NCBI GenBank assembly: GCA_028291365.1
Contig: JAQGIE010000076.1
Coordinates: 1-43,191, forward strand
DNA length: 43,191 nucleotides
Origin: Rhodospirillales bacterium
Lineage (GTDB): Bacteria > Pseudomonadota > Alphaproteobacteria > BOG-932 > Roseiterribacteraceae
Direction of reading: 5' to 3'
Below the pieces are notes generated by a model. It made no database searches, was not told where the DNA came from, and was given only the letters and a program-made list of their open reading frames with translations. Shown in pieces: positions 2,832-12,115 of this stretch; the first letter of the stretch is position 1; each line of letters starts with the position of its first letter. The translations under genes and the position numbers were made by a program.

Positions 2832-4033
<1,202 letters not shown>

Positions 4034-4034
<1 letters not shown>

Positions 4035-4996
4035 TGTCGAAATCCGCGCCCCTCCGCCGCGTTCTGCGGGCGCTGCTGGCCGACACGTCGCCGCGCGCCA
4101 AGTCGCTTATCGTCACCGTCTTCGGTGACGCGATCCTGCCGCATGGCGGCTCGATCTGGATGGGCAGCCTCGTCGCGCTGCTGGCGCCGTTCGGCGTCAA
4201 TGAGCGGCTGGTGCGGACGGCGGTGCTGCGGCTGACGCGCGACAATTGGCTGGTCGCCGACAGTGTCGGGCGGCGCAGCTACTACCGCCTGACCGACACC
4301 GGCAGTCATCGTTTCGAAGAAGCGGCGCAGCGCATCTATGCGGCCGGCAGCGTGCCGTGGGACGGCAACTGGTCGATCGTGATGATCGACGCCGACAAGG
4401 CCGAGCAGCGCGACCGCATCCGGCGCGATCTCGGCTGGCTGGGTTTCGCTTCGATCTCGCAAAGCCTGTTGCTGCATCCCAATCCCGATCGCGCCAGCCT
4501 GGCCGAAGCGATCCGCGACGACGCGCAGGACGGCGCGGTGCTGGTGCTGCGCGCGACGCGCGACCAGCTGCCTGGGCTCGAGCGCGACGATCCGGAAAAG
4601 CTCCGAAGGCTGGTGCAGACGACCTGGGATCTCGACGCGCTGTCGGTGATGTACCAGTCGTTTCTCGACCGTTTCCGTCCCGCGCTGCGCATTCTGCAGG
4701 AGCATGCCGCCGCCGACCCCGAGGGGGCGTTCGTGGTGCGAACCTTGGCGATTCACGAATTCCGCCGCGTGCTGTTGAAGGATCCCGACCTGCCGCCTGA
4801 GTTGCTGCCGCCCAACTGGCCCGGCAGCACCGCGCGACAGCTGTGCCGCAATCTCTATCTCGCCGCCGAGCAGCCGGCCGAGAAACATCTGCTCGACACG
4901 GTCGAGACCGCCGAAGGTCAGTTGCCGGCCGCATCGGCGCGGCATCGCGCGCGCTTCGGCGGCTTGCCCGCCGCACGCAGCCGCGCCCGCCGATGA
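4034..4996 (+). CDS. paaX: PaaX, phenylacetyl-CoA-responsive transcriptional repressor
   Basis: PaaX is a GntR-like winged-helix repressor that releases DNA when it binds phenylacetyl-CoA. The product (320 residues from this ATG; E. coli PaaX has about 316) has an N-terminal winged helix (roughly residues 15-95) with FGDAILPHGGSIWMGSL, LLAPFGVNERLVRTAV and GRRSYYRLTDTG. The PaaX-C ligand domain follows, with WDGNWSIVMID and TTWDLDAL. Near the C-terminus, HEFRRVLLKDPDLPPELLP is a PaaX hallmark. The ATG overlaps the paaJ stop (TGATG), and the gene overlaps the next one by 4 bases (ATGA). Because it sits in the paaG operon, autoregulation is likely. Confidence 0.95.
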
Positions 4997-5598
4997 GCGC
5001 CCTCGTCACCGAAGCGCGGCGCGACGACGTCGTCACGCTGGCGCTCAACCGTCCCGACCGGCTCAACAGCTTCACCGTCGCGCTGCACGAGGAATTCGCC
5101 GCCGCGTTGGCGCGCGTGGGTTCGGCGCGCGCGCTGATCATCACCGGCAACGGACGCGCCTTCTGCGCCGGCCAGGATCTCAGCGAGCGGCGCGTGCCCG
5201 AGGGCGCGCCGATGCCCGATCTCGGGGAGTCGCTGTCGCTGCGCTACAACCCGATGATCCGCGCCATCGCGGCGCTGAAGATGCCGACCATCGCGGCGGT
5301 CAACGGCGCGGCAGTGGGGGCGGGCGTCGGCATCGCACTGGCATGCGACATCGCCGTCGCTGCGGAGTCGGCGAGCTTTCGCCTCCCAGGCAGCAAGCTC
5401 GGCCTGATTCCGGACGCGGGCTCGACCTGGACCGCGTCCCGCACGGTCGGTCTCGCGCGGGCGCGTGCCATGGCGATGCTGGGCGAGGCCTTCACCGCGG
5501 CCGAAGCCGAACGGGTCGGGCTGATCTGGCGTTGCGTCCCCGACCCGGCGTTGCTCGACGAAGCGCACGCGCTGGCGTTGCGCATGGGCGAGGGCTGA
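4993..5598 (+). CDS. Truncated PaaG-like enoyl-CoA hydratase/isomerase
   Basis: This is a second PaaG paralogue lacking its C-terminus. The 201 residues align with PaaG through the oxyanion-hole segments ([30 protein letters not shown]), the isomerase Asp in [12 protein letters not shown] and the LIWRCV segment. It then stops at LALRMGEG, where PaaG continues for about 55 more residues (the C-terminal helices that help form the trimer and close the active site). paaY begins 2 bases after the stop, so nothing of the missing end remains in another frame. The start overlaps the paaX stop (ATGA). It may be an expressed short form or a decaying duplicate; it is not frameshifted within the visible part. 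Confidence 0.8.
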
Positions 5599-5599
5599 G

Positions 5600-6205
5600 A
5601 TGCCGATCTACGCGCTGGGCAATTCGATTCCGGTGGTCGACCCCACCGCGTTCGTGCATCCGACGGCGGTGCTGATCGGCGACGCGATCGTGGGACCGAA
5701 TTGCTATGTCGGTCCGGGCGCCTCGATGCGCGGCGATTTCGGCCGCGTGCAGCTCGCCGAAGGCGCGAACCTGCAGGACAATTGCGTCATGCATTCGTTT
5801 CCCGGGCGCGTCGCGCTGGTCGACGTGAACGGTCATATCGGGCACGGCGCCATCCTGCACGGCTGCACGGTCGGGCGCGACGCGCTGGTCGGCATGCAGG
5901 CGGTGATCATGGACGACGCGGTGATCGGCGAGGGCGCCTTCGTCGCCGCAATGAGTTTCGTGAAGAGCAAGGAGCAGGTGCCGCCGCGCGTCCTGGTCGC
6001 CGGCATTCCTGCTCGCGTGATGCGCGAACTGAGCGAGCAGGAGATGACCTGGAAGCGCAAAGGCACCGAAGAGTACCAGGAGCTTGCGCGCCGCTGTCTC
6101 GAAGGCTTGCGCGAATGCGCACCGCTGCGCGAGATCGAACCGGACCGGCCGCAGAACATGGGCACGGTGCAGCCGCTGGCCGAGTTTCGCACCAAGAAAC
6201 TGTAG
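5600..6205 (+). CDS. paaY: PaaY, hexapeptide-repeat thioesterase of phenylacetate pathway
   Basis: PaaY is a left-handed beta-helix (gamma-carbonic-anhydrase-like) protein. It is reported as a thioesterase that removes the dead-end CoA derivative formed when the PaaZ ring-opening intermediate cyclises. The 201-residue product opens with [14 protein letters not shown], then [30 protein letters not shown] and [12 protein letters not shown]. The metal-binding His residues lie in MHSFP and in [12 protein letters not shown]. Downstream comes the PaaY-specific helical tail, [18 protein letters not shown] and LREIEPDR. The length equals the family's. It starts 2 bases after the truncated paaG copy. 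Confidence 0.94.
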
Positions 6206-6244
6206 ATGCTTGCGTCCGGGCGGGCGCGACGGCAGGCTTCGGCC

Positions 6245-6616
6245 ATGAATCGCGCTCGCCTTTTGCTATTGCCGCTCGCCGCAGCTTCGTTGCTGGCCGG
6301 CGTGCAGCCCGCCGCCGCCGGTCCCTACGTCACCAGCCGATGGACCAAATGGTCGGGGCCGGTCGAGCCCTGCCTGCACGCGGCACGTCGCGTGCTCGAG
6401 ATCCGGCGTTTGCAGATCGATCGCTTCGGCCCGAACCAGGTCATCGGTGAGGCAGGCGGCGTTACCGTCGCGGTGCGCTGCGACGCGCCCGGCTACGCGT
6501 TTGTCTTTTTCGCTTTCACCGACGGCGCGCCGTCGCAGGTGCGCGAGCAGCTCGCCGACGACGTGCGCGAAGAGCTGCGCCGCTCGCTGTCCGGCGGTGG
6601 CGGCGGACGCTACTGA
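6245..6616 (+). CDS. Small exported protein of unknown function
   Basis: I do not recognise this gene. From the ATG chosen here it encodes 123 residues, beginning with a clear Sec signal peptide: MNRAR, a hydrophobic core LLLLPLAAASLLAGV and a cut after PAAA. An upstream ATG at 6206, directly after the paaY stop, is possible but would add 13 residues ahead of the signal. The mature part has two Cys residues (EPCLHAARR and VRCDAPGY) that could form a disulfide, and a Gly-rich end. It is the last gene of the rightward paa operon and converges on paaH with only 6 bases between the stop codons. A periplasmic role is inferred from the signal peptide alone. Confidence 0.7.
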   Translation: MNRARLLLLPLAAASLLAGVQPAAAGPYVTSRWTKWSGPVEPCLHAARRVLEIRRLQIDRFGPNQVIGEAGGVTVAVRCDAPGYAFVFFAFTDGAPSQVREQLADDVREELRRSLSGGGGGRY

Positions 6617-6622
6617 GTTCGT

Positions 6623-8131
6623 CTAGCTTTCCGGCGTCAGCAGCGACACGCCCAGCAGGGCGCGGCGGCGCAGCCACGGCGTCACGCGATAGCGCGGGTC
6701 ACCGTAGAAATTCGCCATCGCGTCCAGCACCGCGACGATGCGCGTGGCGCCATACTTGTCGCCGAGGCTGAGCGGGCCGGCGGGATATCCCAGGCCGAGT
6801 CGCACCGCTTCGTCGATATCCTCGGGCGTCGCGATACGCTGCTGCGCGATGTCGGCGGCGGTGTTGACGATGTTGGCGAGAATGCGCGGCGCGACGAAGC
6901 CGGGACTGTCATGCGTGACTGTGACGCGCGCGCCGCCGGCAGCGAGCAGCGCGCGCGCCGCTTCGCGATACGCAAGCTTGGTCACGCTGGTCGTCATCGC
7001 GCCGCGGCGCGGACCCCGGCCCAGCCACGCATCGACCGCGACGGTGCGCGTCGGATCGAGACCCAGCACATGCGCGGTGACGGTCGCGTCGTGGCCCAGC
7101 GGCGTCACCAGCAGCAGCGACGACGCACCCGGCGTCACCCCGTCGTCCAACGGCCAGCCCGCTTCGACGGCGAGCTGCCGCAACCATCCCGACGCATCGG
7201 TGTCCCGCGGGTCGATCCAAACCGGCACCGCGTTGCCGGTGACGGCGGGCTCGCCGGGTTCGACACGCTTGTCGCCATCATAGTCGTACCAGCCGCGGCC
7301 GGTCTTGCGGCCGAAGCGGCCGGCCTCGACCTGGCGTCGCGCGAGATGCGAGGAGCGCAGCCGCGGGTCGTGCTCGAACCCGGCATGGATCTGCGCCAGC
7401 ACCGCGCTCGACACGTCCATGCCGGTCAGGTCGAACAGTTCGAACGGGCCCATTCTGAGCCCGATCGCGTCGCGCACGACGCGGTCGATGTCTTCGACCG
7501 GCGCGATGCCTTCCTGGAGAATGCGCAAAGCTTCGGTGCCGAGGCCGCGCCCGGCATGGTTGATCAGGAACCCGGGACTGTCTTCGGCCCGCACCGGCTT
7601 GTGCCCGAAGGCGCGCACGAACTCGGCCAGGCGCGCCACCGTCGCTTCGTTCGTCTGCACCGCCGGGATCACTTCGACCACGCGCATCAGCGGCGCCGGG
7701 TTGAAGAAATGCAGCCCCGCGACGCGCGACGGCTCGCTGCATGCGGCGGCGATCGCGGTGATCGACAGCGACGAGGTGTTGCTGGCCAGGATCGTATCCT
7801 TGCGCACGATCGCTTCGAGGTCGCGGAACAGCGCCTGTTTGGTGGCGAGGTCTTCGCGCGCCGCTTCGATGATCAGATCCGCATCGGCGAGATCGGCCAG
7901 GCCTGACGCCGCGTGCAGGTTGGCGATCTGGCGCTCGGCCTCGTTGTGCGGGACGGTGCCTTTCTCGGCCTGACGCTGCAGCATCTTGGCGACGAAGGCG
8001 ATCGCCTCGGTGACCGCTTCGGCGCGCACGTCGAACAGGCGCACGCGAGCGCCGGTGGCGGCGGCAAGCTGCGCGATGCCGCGGCCCATCACGCCTGCGC
8101 CGATCACGGCGACGGTCTTTGGCAGACTCAT
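6623..8131 (-). CDS. paaH: PaaH, 3-hydroxyadipyl-CoA dehydrogenase
   Basis: PaaH oxidises (S)-3-hydroxyadipyl-CoA to 3-oxoadipyl-CoA with NAD+. The 502-residue product starts with the Rossmann motif VAVIGAGVMGRGIAQ (Gly11-x-Gly13-x2-Gly16), followed by Asp35-type cofactor selection in LFDVR. It carries the catalytic His141 in GLHFFNPAPLM with the partner Glu in VVEVIPA, and ASNTSSL. The first 3HCDH C-terminal domain contains FLINHAGRG and a second one GFVAPRILANIVNTAAD, giving the duplicated architecture (about 475-505 residues) usual for PaaH. It follows paaF with one base between stop and start, so the two are co-transcribed. Confidence 0.95.
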   Translation of the reverse strand: MSLPKTVAVIGAGVMGRGIAQLAAATGARVRLFDVRAEAVTEAIAFVAKMLQRQAEKGTVPHNEAERQIANLHAASGLADLADADLIIEAAREDLATKQALFRDLEAIVRKDTILASNTSSLSITAIAAACSEPSRVAGLHFFNPAPLMRVVEVIPAVQTNEATVARLAEFVRAFGHKPVRAEDSPGFLINHAGRGLGTEALRILQEGIAPVEDIDRVVRDAIGLRMGPFELFDLTGMDVSSAVLAQIHAGFEHDPRLRSSHLARRQVEAGRFGRKTGRGWYDYDGDKRVEPGEPAVTGNAVPVWIDPRDTDASGWLRQLAVEAGWPLDDGVTPGASSLLLVTPLGHDATVTAHVLGLDPTRTVAVDAWLGRGPRRGAMTTSVTKLAYREAARALLAAGGARVTVTHDSPGFVAPRILANIVNTAADIAQQRIATPEDIDEAVRLGLGYPAGPLSLGDKYGATRIVAVLDAMANFYGDPRYRVTPWLRRRALLGVSLLTPES

Positions 8132-8132
8132 T

Positions 8133-8918
8133 CTAGTTTCCCTTGAAGCTCGGCTTGCGCTTTTCGATGAAGGCTCTCATGCCTTCTTTCTGGTCCTGCG
8201 TATCGAACAAGGATTGGAACAGCCGCCGTTCGAACGCCAGGGCCGCGTCGAGCGGTTGTTCGGGGCCCTGCAGCGCCGCCTGCTTGATCGCGCGCAGCGC
8301 CAGCGGCGGCAGGGCGGCGATCTGCGTCGCCAGTTCGAGCGCGCGTTGAACCGCGCCGCCGGGCGGCGTCACCTCGCTGGCGAGGCCGAGTTCATGCGCG
8401 CGCGCGCCGCTGAACATGTCGCCGGTCAGCAGCAGGCGCATCGCGGCGAACTTGCCCACCGCGCGTACCAGGCGCTGCGTGCCGCCGGCGCCGGGCATGA
8501 TGCCGAGCTTCACTTCGGGCAGGCCGAAACTCGCGCTTTCCGACGCGACGATGATGTCGGCATGCATCGCTAGTTCGCAGCCGGCGCCGAGCGCGAAGCC
8601 TTCGACCGCCGCGATCAGCGGCTTGGGAAAGCGTTCGATCGGCGCCCAGAGTTTTTCGAGTTCGAGCGCGGCGACTTGTTGCGACGAACGTTCGGCGAGC
8701 AGCTTGACGTCGGCGCCCGCAGCGAAGGCCTTCTCGTCGCCGGTGATGACCACGCAGGCGATCTGTGGATCCTCCGCCAGCGCACCCATGCGCTCGGCCA
8801 GCGCGGTGCGCACGTCGAGATTGATCGCGTTGCGCGCCTCGGGCCGGTTGATGCGCAGCAAGGCGACGCGCGGCGCAGGCCGCTCTTCAAGAACAGGCAG
8901 GGGCGGTTTCTCGGTCAC
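8133..8918 (-). CDS. paaF: PaaF, 2,3-dehydroadipyl-CoA hydratase
   Basis: PaaF hydrates 2,3-dehydroadipyl-CoA to 3-hydroxyadipyl-CoA, directly feeding PaaH encoded next to it. The 261-residue crotonase has both catalytic Glu residues of true hydratases: Glu115 in GAGCELAMHAD and Glu135 in LPEVKLGIMPGAGGTQRL. It ends in the canonical EGMRAFIEKRKPSFKGN. The two Glu residues separate it from the PaaG-type isomerases in the same window, which have Asp at the second site. It diverges from paaZ across a roughly 100-base promoter region containing a PaaX-like half-site pair. Confidence 0.93.
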   Translation of the reverse strand: MTEKPPLPVLEERPAPRVALLRINRPEARNAINLDVRTALAERMGALAEDPQIACVVITGDEKAFAAGADVKLLAERSSQQVAALELEKLWAPIERFPKPLIAAVEGFALGAGCELAMHADIIVASESASFGLPEVKLGIMPGAGGTQRLVRAVGKFAAMRLLLTGDMFSGARAHELGLASEVTPPGGAVQRALELATQIAALPPLALRAIKQAALQGPEQPLDAALAFERRLFQSLFDTQDQKEGMRAFIEKRKPSFKGN

Positions 8919-9019: not shown

Positions 9020-11485
9020 ATGAAGCTGATGAGCTACGCGGAGAGCCGCTGGATCGAGCCCACGGGCACGATGGCCGAGCTGATGAGCGCGGTCGACGGC
9101 CGCCTGATCGCGAGCTGCTCGAGCGCGGGCGTGGATTTCGGCGGCATGGCCGCCTATGCGCGCAAGGTCGGCGGGCCGGCGCTGCGCCAGATGACATTTC
9201 ACCAGCGCGCCGAACGGCTGAAGGCGCTGGCGCTGTATCTGAACGAGCGCAAGGAAGCGCTCTACGAGCTGAATTACGATACCGGCGCCACGCGCAAGGA
9301 CGGCTGGATCGACATCGAAGGCGGTATCGGGACGGTGTTCGCGTACGCGTCCAAGGGGCGGCGCGAACTGCCGAACCAGCGTTTCCTGCTCGACGGCGCG
9401 GTGGAGAATCTGTCCAAGGGCGGCACCTTCATCGGCCGCCACATCGTGAGCCCGCTCCAGGGCGTCGCGGTCCATATCAACGCGTTCAATTTCCCCTGCT
9501 GGGGCATGCTGGAAAAGCTCGCGCCGACGATTCTCGCGGGCGTGCCCGCGATCGTGAAGCCGGCCTCGGCGACGTCATGGCTGGCCGAGGCGATGTTCCG
9601 GCAGATCATCGAATCCGGCCTTCTTCCAGAAGGCAGCGTGCAGTTGATTGTCGGCAGCACCGGCGACCTGCTCGATCATCTGACCGGCCAGGACGTCGTG
9701 TCTTTCACCGGTTCGATCGATACATCGTCGAAGCTGCGCAACCACCCGACCATCACGCAGCAGGCGGTGCGGTTCGTCGCCGAACGCGATTCGCTGAATT
9801 CGTCGGTGCTGGGCCCGGACGCGACGCCGGACTCGCCCGAATTCGATCTGTTCATCAAAGAAGTCGTGCGCGAGATGACGACCAAGGCGGGGCAGAAATG
9901 CACCGCCATCCGCCGCGCCTTCGTCCCCGAACATTTGCTGGACGCCGCGTGCAAGGCGCTCGCCACGCGGCTGGGCAGGGTGGTGGTCGGCGATCCGCGC
10001 CGCGACGAGGTGATGATGGGCGCGCTGGCGAGCCGCTCGCAGCTCGACGACGTGCGCGGCAAGATCGCGACTCTGCGCAAGGAAGCGACGGTCGCGTTCG
10101 GCGATCCCGACCAGGTGCAGCTGTCGGGCGGCTCCGAAAGGGATTTGCGGCTCGGCGCGTTCCTGAGCCCGGTGCTGCTGCGCTGCGAGGGTCCGGACGA
10201 GGCGATCGAAGTGCATGCGTCGGAGCCGTTCGGTCCGGTCGCCACGCTGATGCCGTATCGCGACGTCGAACACGCGTTGAACCTGGTCAAGCGCGGCGAG
10301 GGAAGCCTGGTCGCGTCGGTGTTCACCTATGACGACGCGGTCGCGTCCGAACTGGTGCACGGCGCCGCCTCGTTCCACGGCCGCATCATTCTGGTCGATC
10401 GGGACTGCGCCAAGGAATCGACCGGTCACGGCTCGCCGCTGCCGGGCCTCGTCCATGGCGGACCCGGCCGTGCGGGCGGCGGCGAGGAACTGGGCGGCAT
10501 TCGCGGCGTCATGCATTACATGCAGCGCACCGCGTTGCAGGGCTCGCCCAAGCGCATCGCGCAACTCACCAACGCCTGGACCAAGGGCGCGCCCGAACTG
10601 ACGTTCGACGCGCATCCATTCCGCAAGAATTTCGAAGAGCTGGTGATCGGCGAAACCTACCGCACTGCGCCGCGGGTGGTGACGCTGGGCGACATCGAAC
10701 ATTTCGCGCATTTCACCGGCGACACGTTTTACGCCCACATGGACGAGGAAGCCGCGGCGGCGAACCCGTTCTTCCCCGGCCGCGTCGCGCACGGCTATCT
10801 GCTTCTGTCCTTTGCCGCCGGCCTTTTCGTCGATCCCGCGCCGGGTCCGGTGCTGGCCAATTACGGGCTCGACAATCTGCGGTTTCTGAAGCCGCTGTCG
10901 CCCGGTGACGCGATGCAGGTGCGGCTGACCGCGAAAGAAAAGAATCTGCGCAACGCCGACTATGGCGAAGTGCGCTGGGACGTGGCGGTCACCAACCAGC
11001 ATGACGAGCTGGTCGCGTCCTACGACCTGCTGACGATGAATGCGCGGCCGCGCGAGCTGTACGAGGTCGAAGAGCAGGCGGTGGTGAAAGCGCCGCCCGC
11101 GACGGTGTGGAAGATCCTGCGCGAATTCGGCGATGTCGCCGCGTGGCATCCGTCCTTCGCCAGCAGCAAGCTCGAAACCGAAGGTCCGTTCGGCGCCGGC
11201 TGCGTGCGCGCGCTGGAAATGCCCAAGAGCGGCGTGACGCGCGAAGAGCTGACCGCGTTCGACGATGCCGGCCGCTCGATGAGCTATCGCATCGTCGAAG
11301 GGCCGCTGCCGGTGCGCAACTACCGTTCGACCTTGCGGGTCGAGCCCGAGGGCGAGGGCAGCAAGGTGATCTGGTCGGCAGCGTTCGACGCCCCGTCCGA
11401 CACCGGCGCCGGCCTGCTCGCCGGGGTGCGCAAGGTGGTGCTGAAGCGCGGGCTCGACGCGCTGGTGAAACAGCACGGCGGCTGA
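9020..11485 (+). CDS. paaZ: PaaZ ring-opening enzyme fused to a C-terminal SRPBCC domain
   Basis: PaaZ hydrolyses the oxepin-CoA ring (enoyl-CoA hydratase domain) and oxidises the resulting semialdehyde with NADP+ (ALDH domain). The ALDH part (about residues 1-510) has Glu255 in AERDSLNSSV and the catalytic Cys294 in TKAGQKCTAIRR. The MaoC hotdog domain (about 538-675) has Asp568 and His573 in GDTFYAHMD. These four match the E. coli catalytic residues by position. E. coli PaaZ ends at about 681 residues; this protein continues to 821. The extra 141 residues (from about 681) resemble an SRPBCC/START-like ligand-binding fold: AVVKAPPATVWKILREFGD, AAWHPSFASSKLE, FGAGCVRALEMP and YRSTLRVEPEGEGSKV. 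The frame is continuous. The ATG at 9020 was chosen because it opens conserved PaaZ sequence. Confidence 0.93.
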   Translation: MKLMSYAESRWIEPTGTMAELMSAVDGRLIASCSSAGVDFGGMAAYARKVGGPALRQMTFHQRAERLKALALYLNERKEALYELNYDTGATRKDGWIDIEGGIGTVFAYASKGRRELPNQRFLLDGAVENLSKGGTFIGRHIVSPLQGVAVHINAFNFPCWGMLEKLAPTILAGVPAIVKPASATSWLAEAMFRQIIESGLLPEGSVQLIVGSTGDLLDHLTGQDVVSFTGSIDTSSKLRNHPTITQQAVRFVAERDSLNSSVLGPDATPDSPEFDLFIKEVVREMTTKAGQKCTAIRRAFVPEHLLDAACKALATRLGRVVVGDPRRDEVMMGALASRSQLDDVRGKIATLRKEATVAFGDPDQVQLSGGSERDLRLGAFLSPVLLRCEGPDEAIEVHASEPFGPVATLMPYRDVEHALNLVKRGEGSLVASVFTYDDAVASELVHGAASFHGRIILVDRDCAKESTGHGSPLPGLVHGGPGRAGGGEELGGIRGVMHYMQRTALQGSPKRIAQLTNAWTKGAPELTFDAHPFRKNFEELVIGETYRTAPRVVTLGDIEHFAHFTGDTFYAHMDEEAAAANPFFPGRVAHGYLLLSFAAGLFVDPAPGPVLANYGLDNLRFLKPLSPGDAMQVRLTAKEKNLRNADYGEVRWDVAVTNQHDELVASYDLLTMNARPRELYEVEEQAVVKAPPATVWKILREFGDVAAWHPSFASSKLETEGPFGAGCVRALEMPKSGVTREELTAFDDAGRSMSYRIVEGPLPVRNYRSTLRVEPEGEGSKVIWSAAFDAPSDTGAGLLAGVRKVVLKRGLDALVKQHGG

Positions 11486-11626: not shown

Positions 11627-12115
11627 ATGTCCAAGATCACGTCCAAGATCGCCCCGTGCCTGTGGTTCAACGGCCAGGCTGAGGAAGCGGCCAGGTTTTA
11701 TACGTCGCTGCTGCCTGACTCGCGGATCGACCATGTCCAGAAGAACGTGATCGACGCACCCGGCGGCAAGGAGGGCTCGGTGCTGGTCGTCGAGTTCACG
11801 CTCGCGGGCCAGGGCTTCCTCGCGCTCAATGGCGGCTGCGACTTCGAGTACACGCACGCCATCTCGTTCGCCATCGATTGCGAGGACCAGGCGGAGGTCG
11901 ACCGCCTCTGGGATGGGTTGGGCAAGGGTGGCCAGATCGAGCAATGCGGCTGGCTGCGCGACCGCTACGGCGTTTCGTGGCAGATCGTGCCCAGCGTGCT
12001 GCGCAAGCTGGTGGCCGATCCCGACCCGGTCAAAGCGCGCCGCGTGATGGCAGCGATGCTGCAGATGGTGAAGCTCGACGTCGCCGGGCTGCAGAAGGCC
12101 TACGACGGCACATAA
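11627..12115 (+). CDS. VOC family (PhnB-like) protein
   Basis: This 162-residue protein belongs to the vicinal-oxygen-chelate superfamily, in the group often labelled 3-demethylubiquinone-9 3-methyltransferase domain (PhnB-like). It opens with KIAPCLWFNGQAEEAARFYT, has SVLVVEFTLAGQGFLALNGG and HAISFAIDCEDQAEVDRLWD, and ends with GVSWQIVPSVL and RVMAAMLQMVKLDV, all typical of the family. An AAGGAG ribosome binding site 7 bases before the ATG fixes the start. The true reaction of this group is not known, and the methyltransferase label is probably historical. It follows the paaZ terminator and looks monocistronic. Confidence 0.85.
   Translation: MSKITSKIAPCLWFNGQAEEAARFYTSLLPDSRIDHVQKNVIDAPGGKEGSVLVVEFTLAGQGFLALNGGCDFEYTHAISFAIDCEDQAEVDRLWDGLGKGGQIEQCGWLRDRYGVSWQIVPSVLRKLVADPDPVKARRVMAAMLQMVKLDVAGLQKAYDGT

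Follow-up and report, generated by a model that had tools for sequence, protein, structure and literature searches.

A PaaZ protein extended by a C-terminal SRPBCC domain in an alphaproteobacterial paa cluster, with a possible role in capturing leaked intermediates

Results

Gene content of the locus

The window (the whole stretch of DNA analysed, 43,191 nucleotides from a Rhodospirillales bacterium) holds a paa cluster in which a stop-free plus-strand frame of 821 residues encodes PaaZ with a third domain at its C-terminus. Genes for PaaJ, PaaX, a short PaaG-like protein, a PaaY-like protein, PaaH and PaaF accompany it, and the same local gene order surrounds the fusion gene in the second genome of the genus (G001).

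1404-2207, full-length paaG-like gene
2832-4034, plus strand, paaJ/pcaF, 3-oxoadipyl-CoA thiolase
4019-4996, plus strand, paaX, repressor
4993-5598, plus strand, second, short PaaG-like enoyl-CoA isomerase of 201 aa, adjoining paaX and paaY
5600-6205, plus strand, paaY-like gene (a strong 291 bits to TIGR02287, yet below the curated cut-off of 320)
6623-8131, minus strand, paaH-like 3-hydroxyacyl-CoA dehydrogenase
8133-8918, minus strand, paaF-like enoyl-CoA hydratase, divergent from paaZ
9020-11485, plus strand, paaZ-SRPBCC fusion gene (ALDH, MaoC hydratase, SRPBCC), 821 aa, assigned by profiles and found also in G001
9020-10576, plus strand, aldehyde dehydrogenase half, residues 1 to about 519, with Glu255, Cys294 and the channel residues Lys68 and Arg115
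10580-11047, plus strand, MaoC-type oxepin-CoA hydratase half, residues about 521-676, with Asp568, His573 and Arg621
11048-11056, plus strand, junction Pro677-Glu679, between the usual PaaZ C-terminus and the tail
11057-11482, plus strand, SRPBCC/PF10604 helix-grip domain, residues 680-821, with Arg51, Glu63, Tyr77 and Tyr89 (tail numbering)

Three neighbours deserve a remark of their own. The short PaaG-like protein (4993-5598) is without the last 55-60 residues of its family; its form in G001 (205 aa) is 88% identical with a dN/dS of 0.13, so the truncation is old and selected and not the mark of a fresh pseudogene. Between paaY and paaH, a small plus-strand gene product (6206-6616), glycine-rich at its end and with what looks like a signal peptide, has no Pfam match and has a diverged counterpart at the same position in G001. 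Directly downstream of the fusion, in both species, lies a gene for a glyoxalase-like protein (PF06983, 3-dmu-9_3-mt; 11627-12115, plus strand).

A complete PaaZ followed by an extra domain

Residues 3-676 match TIGR02278 (PaaZ) with 1036 bits over the entire model (1-664 of 664; curated cut-off 562.8 bits), and E. coli PaaZ (6jql) aligns end to end with this part of the fusion. Glu255, Cys294, Asp568 and His573 align with E. coli Glu256, Cys295, Asp561 and His566, the residues with described catalytic roles (PMC6739347), and are invariant in an alignment of 29 PaaZ proteins. The positively charged residues around which the CoA moiety pivots in the E. coli enzyme are K69, R116, R613, K631, K636 and R639 (PMC6739347); judging by alignments to E. 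coli PaaZ and to the 29 proteins, the fusion retains K68, R115, R621, K639 and R644, and the loop that bears E. coli K636 is shorter in it. Given that the catalytic and most CoA-pivot residues are kept, the ALDH and MaoC domains have the appearance of a PaaZ that is fully functional and capable of channelling. A first-pass annotation of this DNA had called both halves complete, named the same four catalytic residues and noted that the frame runs some 140 residues past the end of E. coli PaaZ, with the added part starting from 11060. All of this is borne out: the extension amounts to about 142 residues and the domain proper begins at about 11057 (residue 680).

The extension scores 110.2 bits (E 1.3e-31, residues 682-818) against Pfam PF10604 (Polyketide_cyc2) within the full protein and 114.9 bits on its own, for a gathering threshold of 27.4 bits. 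An AlphaFold2 model built from an alignment of 51 homologous domains reaches a mean pLDDT of 94.7 and a pTM of 0.88, with secondary structure elements in the helix-grip order (strand, two helices, six strands, long helix). Foldseek places this model at TM values of about 0.8-0.9 to SRPBCC and PYR/PYL structures in the PDB, the best matches being YPO0625 (7tmu; E about 1e-11, TM 0.9), XoxI, Tfu_2981 and the PYR/PYL receptors. A profile search of PDB sequences returned a similar set together with lachrymatory-factor synthase and a hydroxynitrile lyase. The earlier reading of the tail as an SRPBCC domain is thus upheld by profile, sequence and predicted fold, and the structural search did not move it to another fold. 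In the aligned homologue set W18 and R51 are invariant and E63, Y77, Y89 and W106 reach 98%; both fused proteins retain all six. The tail is, by prediction, an intact and confidently folded domain, and its pocket would bind a small hydrophobic or carbonyl compound.

At the junction, the alignment column of Leu680 holds the start methionine of the standalone homologues (Met in 82%), and the usual PaaZ C-terminus falls just before Pro677-Glu679. As PaaZ ends near residue 675 and the standalone proteins begin at 680, the fusion is end to end with few residues between the partners. In a full-length AlphaFold model two residues separate the final strand of PaaZ (664-675) from the strand that opens the tail (678-689). 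This model is unreliable in the tail (pLDDT <50 at 704-749), the underlying alignment covering the tail badly, and we discarded the model for placing the tail relative to the enzyme.

Between the two species the Nei-Gojobori dN/dS is 0.12 for ALDH and 0.11 for MaoC; for the tail it is 0.265. Purifying selection acts on the tail, whose amino-acid sequence evolves about twice as fast as the catalytic domains; this dN/dS speaks against an appendage that is decaying or there by pure accident, and does not tell the role of the tail. A frameshift, readthrough or assembly artefact is ruled out, since an independent congeneric genome has the fusion too, likewise in frame and with the tail under this selection. 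Separate translation of the tail from an internal ATG at about 11036 is unlikely, the bases upstream of it (CTACGACCTGCTGACG) offering no purine-rich ribosome site.

Distribution and origin

Both genomes of the source genus that were searched (G000 and G001) carry the fusion, 90% identical over residues 1-821. From all other PaaZ proteins extracted from their loci and read to the C-terminus, 96 out of 96 end no more than 10 residues past the aligned end, at about position 675-685, and none has the tail. This counters the possibility, named in the first-pass annotation as one that would refute it, that most PaaZ proteins share the extra domain, and agrees with its remark that the architecture was not familiar from described PaaZ proteins. 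The three other genomes of the order gave no PaaZ at the limit used. No other PaaZ match spanning the tail was found in 385 genomes of the class, 399 genomes of the phylum or the near-relative family, in a sampling that is broad in Pseudomonadota and thin elsewhere, and among plasmids the best 40 of 188 records reach no more than 83% query coverage, which leaves no tail among these. In the open-access literature searched, no paper names PaaZ and SRPBCC together, and papers that name PaaZ and polyketide cyclase, judged by their titles, include nothing apparently on PaaZ architecture. The three-domain architecture (ALDH, MaoC, SRPBCC) is almost certainly genuine and rare.

In a PaaZ tree the fused pair nests among tail-less PaaZ from Inquilinus, Roseomonas and others, in a group with SH-aLRT support of 96, which fits a single gain of the tail on the stem of the genus, as far as the sampled sequences go. 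We looked for a neighbouring paaZ/SRPBCC gene pair as the precursor and found no sign of one: a tail HMM run over 1.67 Mb around 99 PaaZ loci returned only the fused genes themselves. A partial match over residues 4-802 in another genome (G686), considered as an unfused neighbour, proved to be paaZ followed by a paaX-like gene, with no SRPBCC. The nearest standalone homologues of the tail are tandem genes in other Alphaproteobacteria, the second copy being fused to a zinc-type dehydrogenase:

L129, 7891-9805, tandem SRPBCC genes, the second dehydrogenase-fused
L130, 5338-7273, tandem SRPBCC genes, the second dehydrogenase-fused

The conserved block around these genes also encodes a coiled-coil flotillin-like protein, PEP_hydrolase, an ABC-UPF0261 fusion, FAA hydrolase and an amidohydrolase. 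In the data searched, the protein studied here is a genus-restricted PaaZ variant in which a standalone-type PF10604 protein has been joined to the C-terminus of the hydratase.

Possible roles of the SRPBCC domain

PaaZ is a well-studied enzyme that must retain its intermediate, and the leak of that intermediate is the origin of bacterial tropones. Even when the enzyme is wild-type, the semialdehyde it produces undergoes spontaneous cyclisation to a CoA ester with a seven-membered ring; the cyclised ester inhibits PaaZ, and in E. coli the thioesterase PaaY removes this dead-end product (PMC7497051). The first-pass annotation had proposed that the pocket could hold or shield oxepin-CoA or the open intermediate. 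A pocket for the semialdehyde that leaks, or for what it cyclises to, is plausible and would fit this published leak chemistry (PMC7497051).

Elaborating on that proposal, oxepin-CoA would undergo ring opening and oxidation in the ALDH and MaoC domains through the usual CoA-pivot channelling, and each subunit would carry one SRPBCC domain attached where its hydratase domain ends, which makes six to a hexamer should the fusion assemble as in E. coli. This domain would offer a hydrophobic pocket able to bind a carbonyl or hydroxyl group, most likely capturing a small hydrophobic or aldehyde-bearing molecule of the pathway. Candidate ligands are the escaped open semialdehyde, its cycloheptatriene condensation product and the free acid left after PaaY; choosing the semialdehyde, the cyclised product or a derived acid as the ligand is a guess. 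Capture would lessen product inhibition or leakage.

Taken as a whole, this model of a tail that captures or contains a leaked intermediate is possible, its chances being somewhat below even. The PF10604 fold, the presence in both species and absence from the 96 other PaaZ proteins, the selection on the tail, the R51/E63/Y77/Y89 set with its likeness to ligand-holding residues of a hydroxynitrile lyase and of PYL2, and the known leak of PaaZ speak for it, and there is a precedent for pairing this SRPBCC subfamily with redox enzymes in the tandem copy fused to a zinc-type dehydrogenase. Against it, the channelling residues K68, R115, R621, K639 and R644 and a PaaY-like gene are both kept, so no defect is visible that the tail must repair; most lineages manage without the domain, and its dN/dS is roughly double the value for the catalytic domains.

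The paaY-like gene at 5600-6205 sits in an alphaproteobacterial paa cluster, that is, in a class where PaaY is reported to be scarce (PMC13186573). The genus may therefore own two devices against the leak, the PaaY-like protein and the tail.

Three other roles, each unlikely, were weighed against capture. The tail could be structural, serving oligomer stability, solubility or docking onto a further paa enzyme, or it could be a fusion that is tolerated and plays no part specific to the pathway. The near lack of a linker after the last hydratase strand, the dN/dS above that of the catalytic domains and the confinement, within the data searched, to a single genus all go in that direction. We regard this as improbable, however, given the retained polar residues conserved across the family and a dN/dS that still denotes constraint (0.27 when rounded).

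With similarly low probability, the tail could be a third enzyme, its Arg-Glu-Tyr-Tyr set acting on the escaped semialdehyde or on the cycloheptatriene product by hydration, by retro-aldol repair or, in the opposite sense, by promoting cyclisation towards tropones. PF10604-type proteins do include enzymes, such as lachrymatory-factor synthase and hydroxynitrile lyase, and R51, E63, Y77 and Y89 are 98-100% conserved among homologues and present in both fused proteins. Hydroxynitrile lyase activity, however, needs Asp85/Ser87, and the tail would have Glu at the Ser87 position, judging by pattern and spacing; nor is there a tropone-pathway gene among the paa genes typed. A trifunctional PaaZ, with the SRPBCC domain supplying a third active site as a built-in repair or steering enzyme based on these four residues, is a distinctly unlikely outcome.

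Nor do we expect the tail to be a sensor in which a hydrophobic effector (e.g., the cyclised product, phenylacetate or a plant aromatic) alters PaaZ activity allosterically. PYR/PYL proteins, which alter a partner protein upon binding abscisic acid, are the closest well-studied folds with known ligands, and tail Glu63 and Tyr89 align with their ligand-contact residues. The switching device is missing, however: the SGLPA gate motif is absent from the tail sequence and the position of the HRL latch reads LPV, so the tail is, as far as these motifs go, no switch of the PYL type. Nothing points to a partner protein either.

Whichever of these roles applies, a PaaZ that naturally bears a pocket domain within its own chain is a direct system for studying intermediate leakage and product inhibition. 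Many PF10604 SRPBCC domains have no known ligand, and the fusion would be a rare functional handle on them.

Comparison with known systems

E. coli PaaZ (TIGR02278; 6jql-6jqo) is an oxepin-CoA hydrolase and 3-oxo-5,6-dehydrosuberyl-CoA semialdehyde dehydrogenase that couples ring opening to aldehyde oxidation in a domain-swapped hexamer. The fusion resembles it in its complete ALDH and MaoC domains, in all catalytic and most channel residues and in its place in a paa cluster, and differs by about 142 further residues that make up an SRPBCC domain, where E. coli PaaZ, like the 96 others, stops near residue 675-685.

With the PF10604/SRPBCC proteins of the PDB (3cnw XoxI, 3f08, 2le1 Tfu_2981, 7tmu YPO0625) the tail shares profile, fold and the conserved W18, W30, R51, E63, Y77, Y89 and W106. 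Those are single-domain proteins with no known function, whereas the tail is the C-terminal part of a catabolic enzyme.

The tail also shares the helix-grip fold (TM about 0.8-0.87) with the PYR/PYL/RCAR receptors, in which Lys59 of PYR1 anchors the carboxylate of abscisic acid. Glu63 and Tyr89 align with Glu98 and Tyr124 of PYL2 (numbers that we take from its known sequence), equal to Glu94 and Tyr120 of PYR1, which are pyrabactin contacts. Unlike these receptors, the tail is prokaryotic and fused to an enzyme, and their gate and latch motifs are missing.

The SRPBCC-dehydrogenase fusions of other Alphaproteobacteria (L129, L130) carry SRPBCC domains about 30-38% identical to the tail, one of them likewise fused to an oxidoreductase. 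There the SRPBCC domain is N-terminal, the partner is a zinc-type medium-chain dehydrogenase and the loci hold no paaZ.

A further point of comparison is DtHNL, the PF10604 hydroxynitrile lyase of Davallia, for which we considered Asp85, Ser87, Arg69, Tyr101, Tyr117 and Tyr161. Its Tyr101 and Tyr117 hydrogen-bond the hydroxyl or carbonyl group of benzaldehyde-type aromatic ligands, and Arg69 lies near these ligand-holding tyrosines, with a water link to Tyr101 (PMC5413884). At position 87 (DtHNL numbering) the family usually has Glu, and the authors regard Glu in place of Ser87 as incompatible with hydroxynitrile lyase activity (PMC5413884). Based on family pattern and spacing (14 residues from E to Y in both) rather than on a residue-level alignment, R51, Y77 and Y89 of the tail would correspond to the Arg-Tyr-Tyr set of DtHNL, with Glu63 in the place of Ser87.
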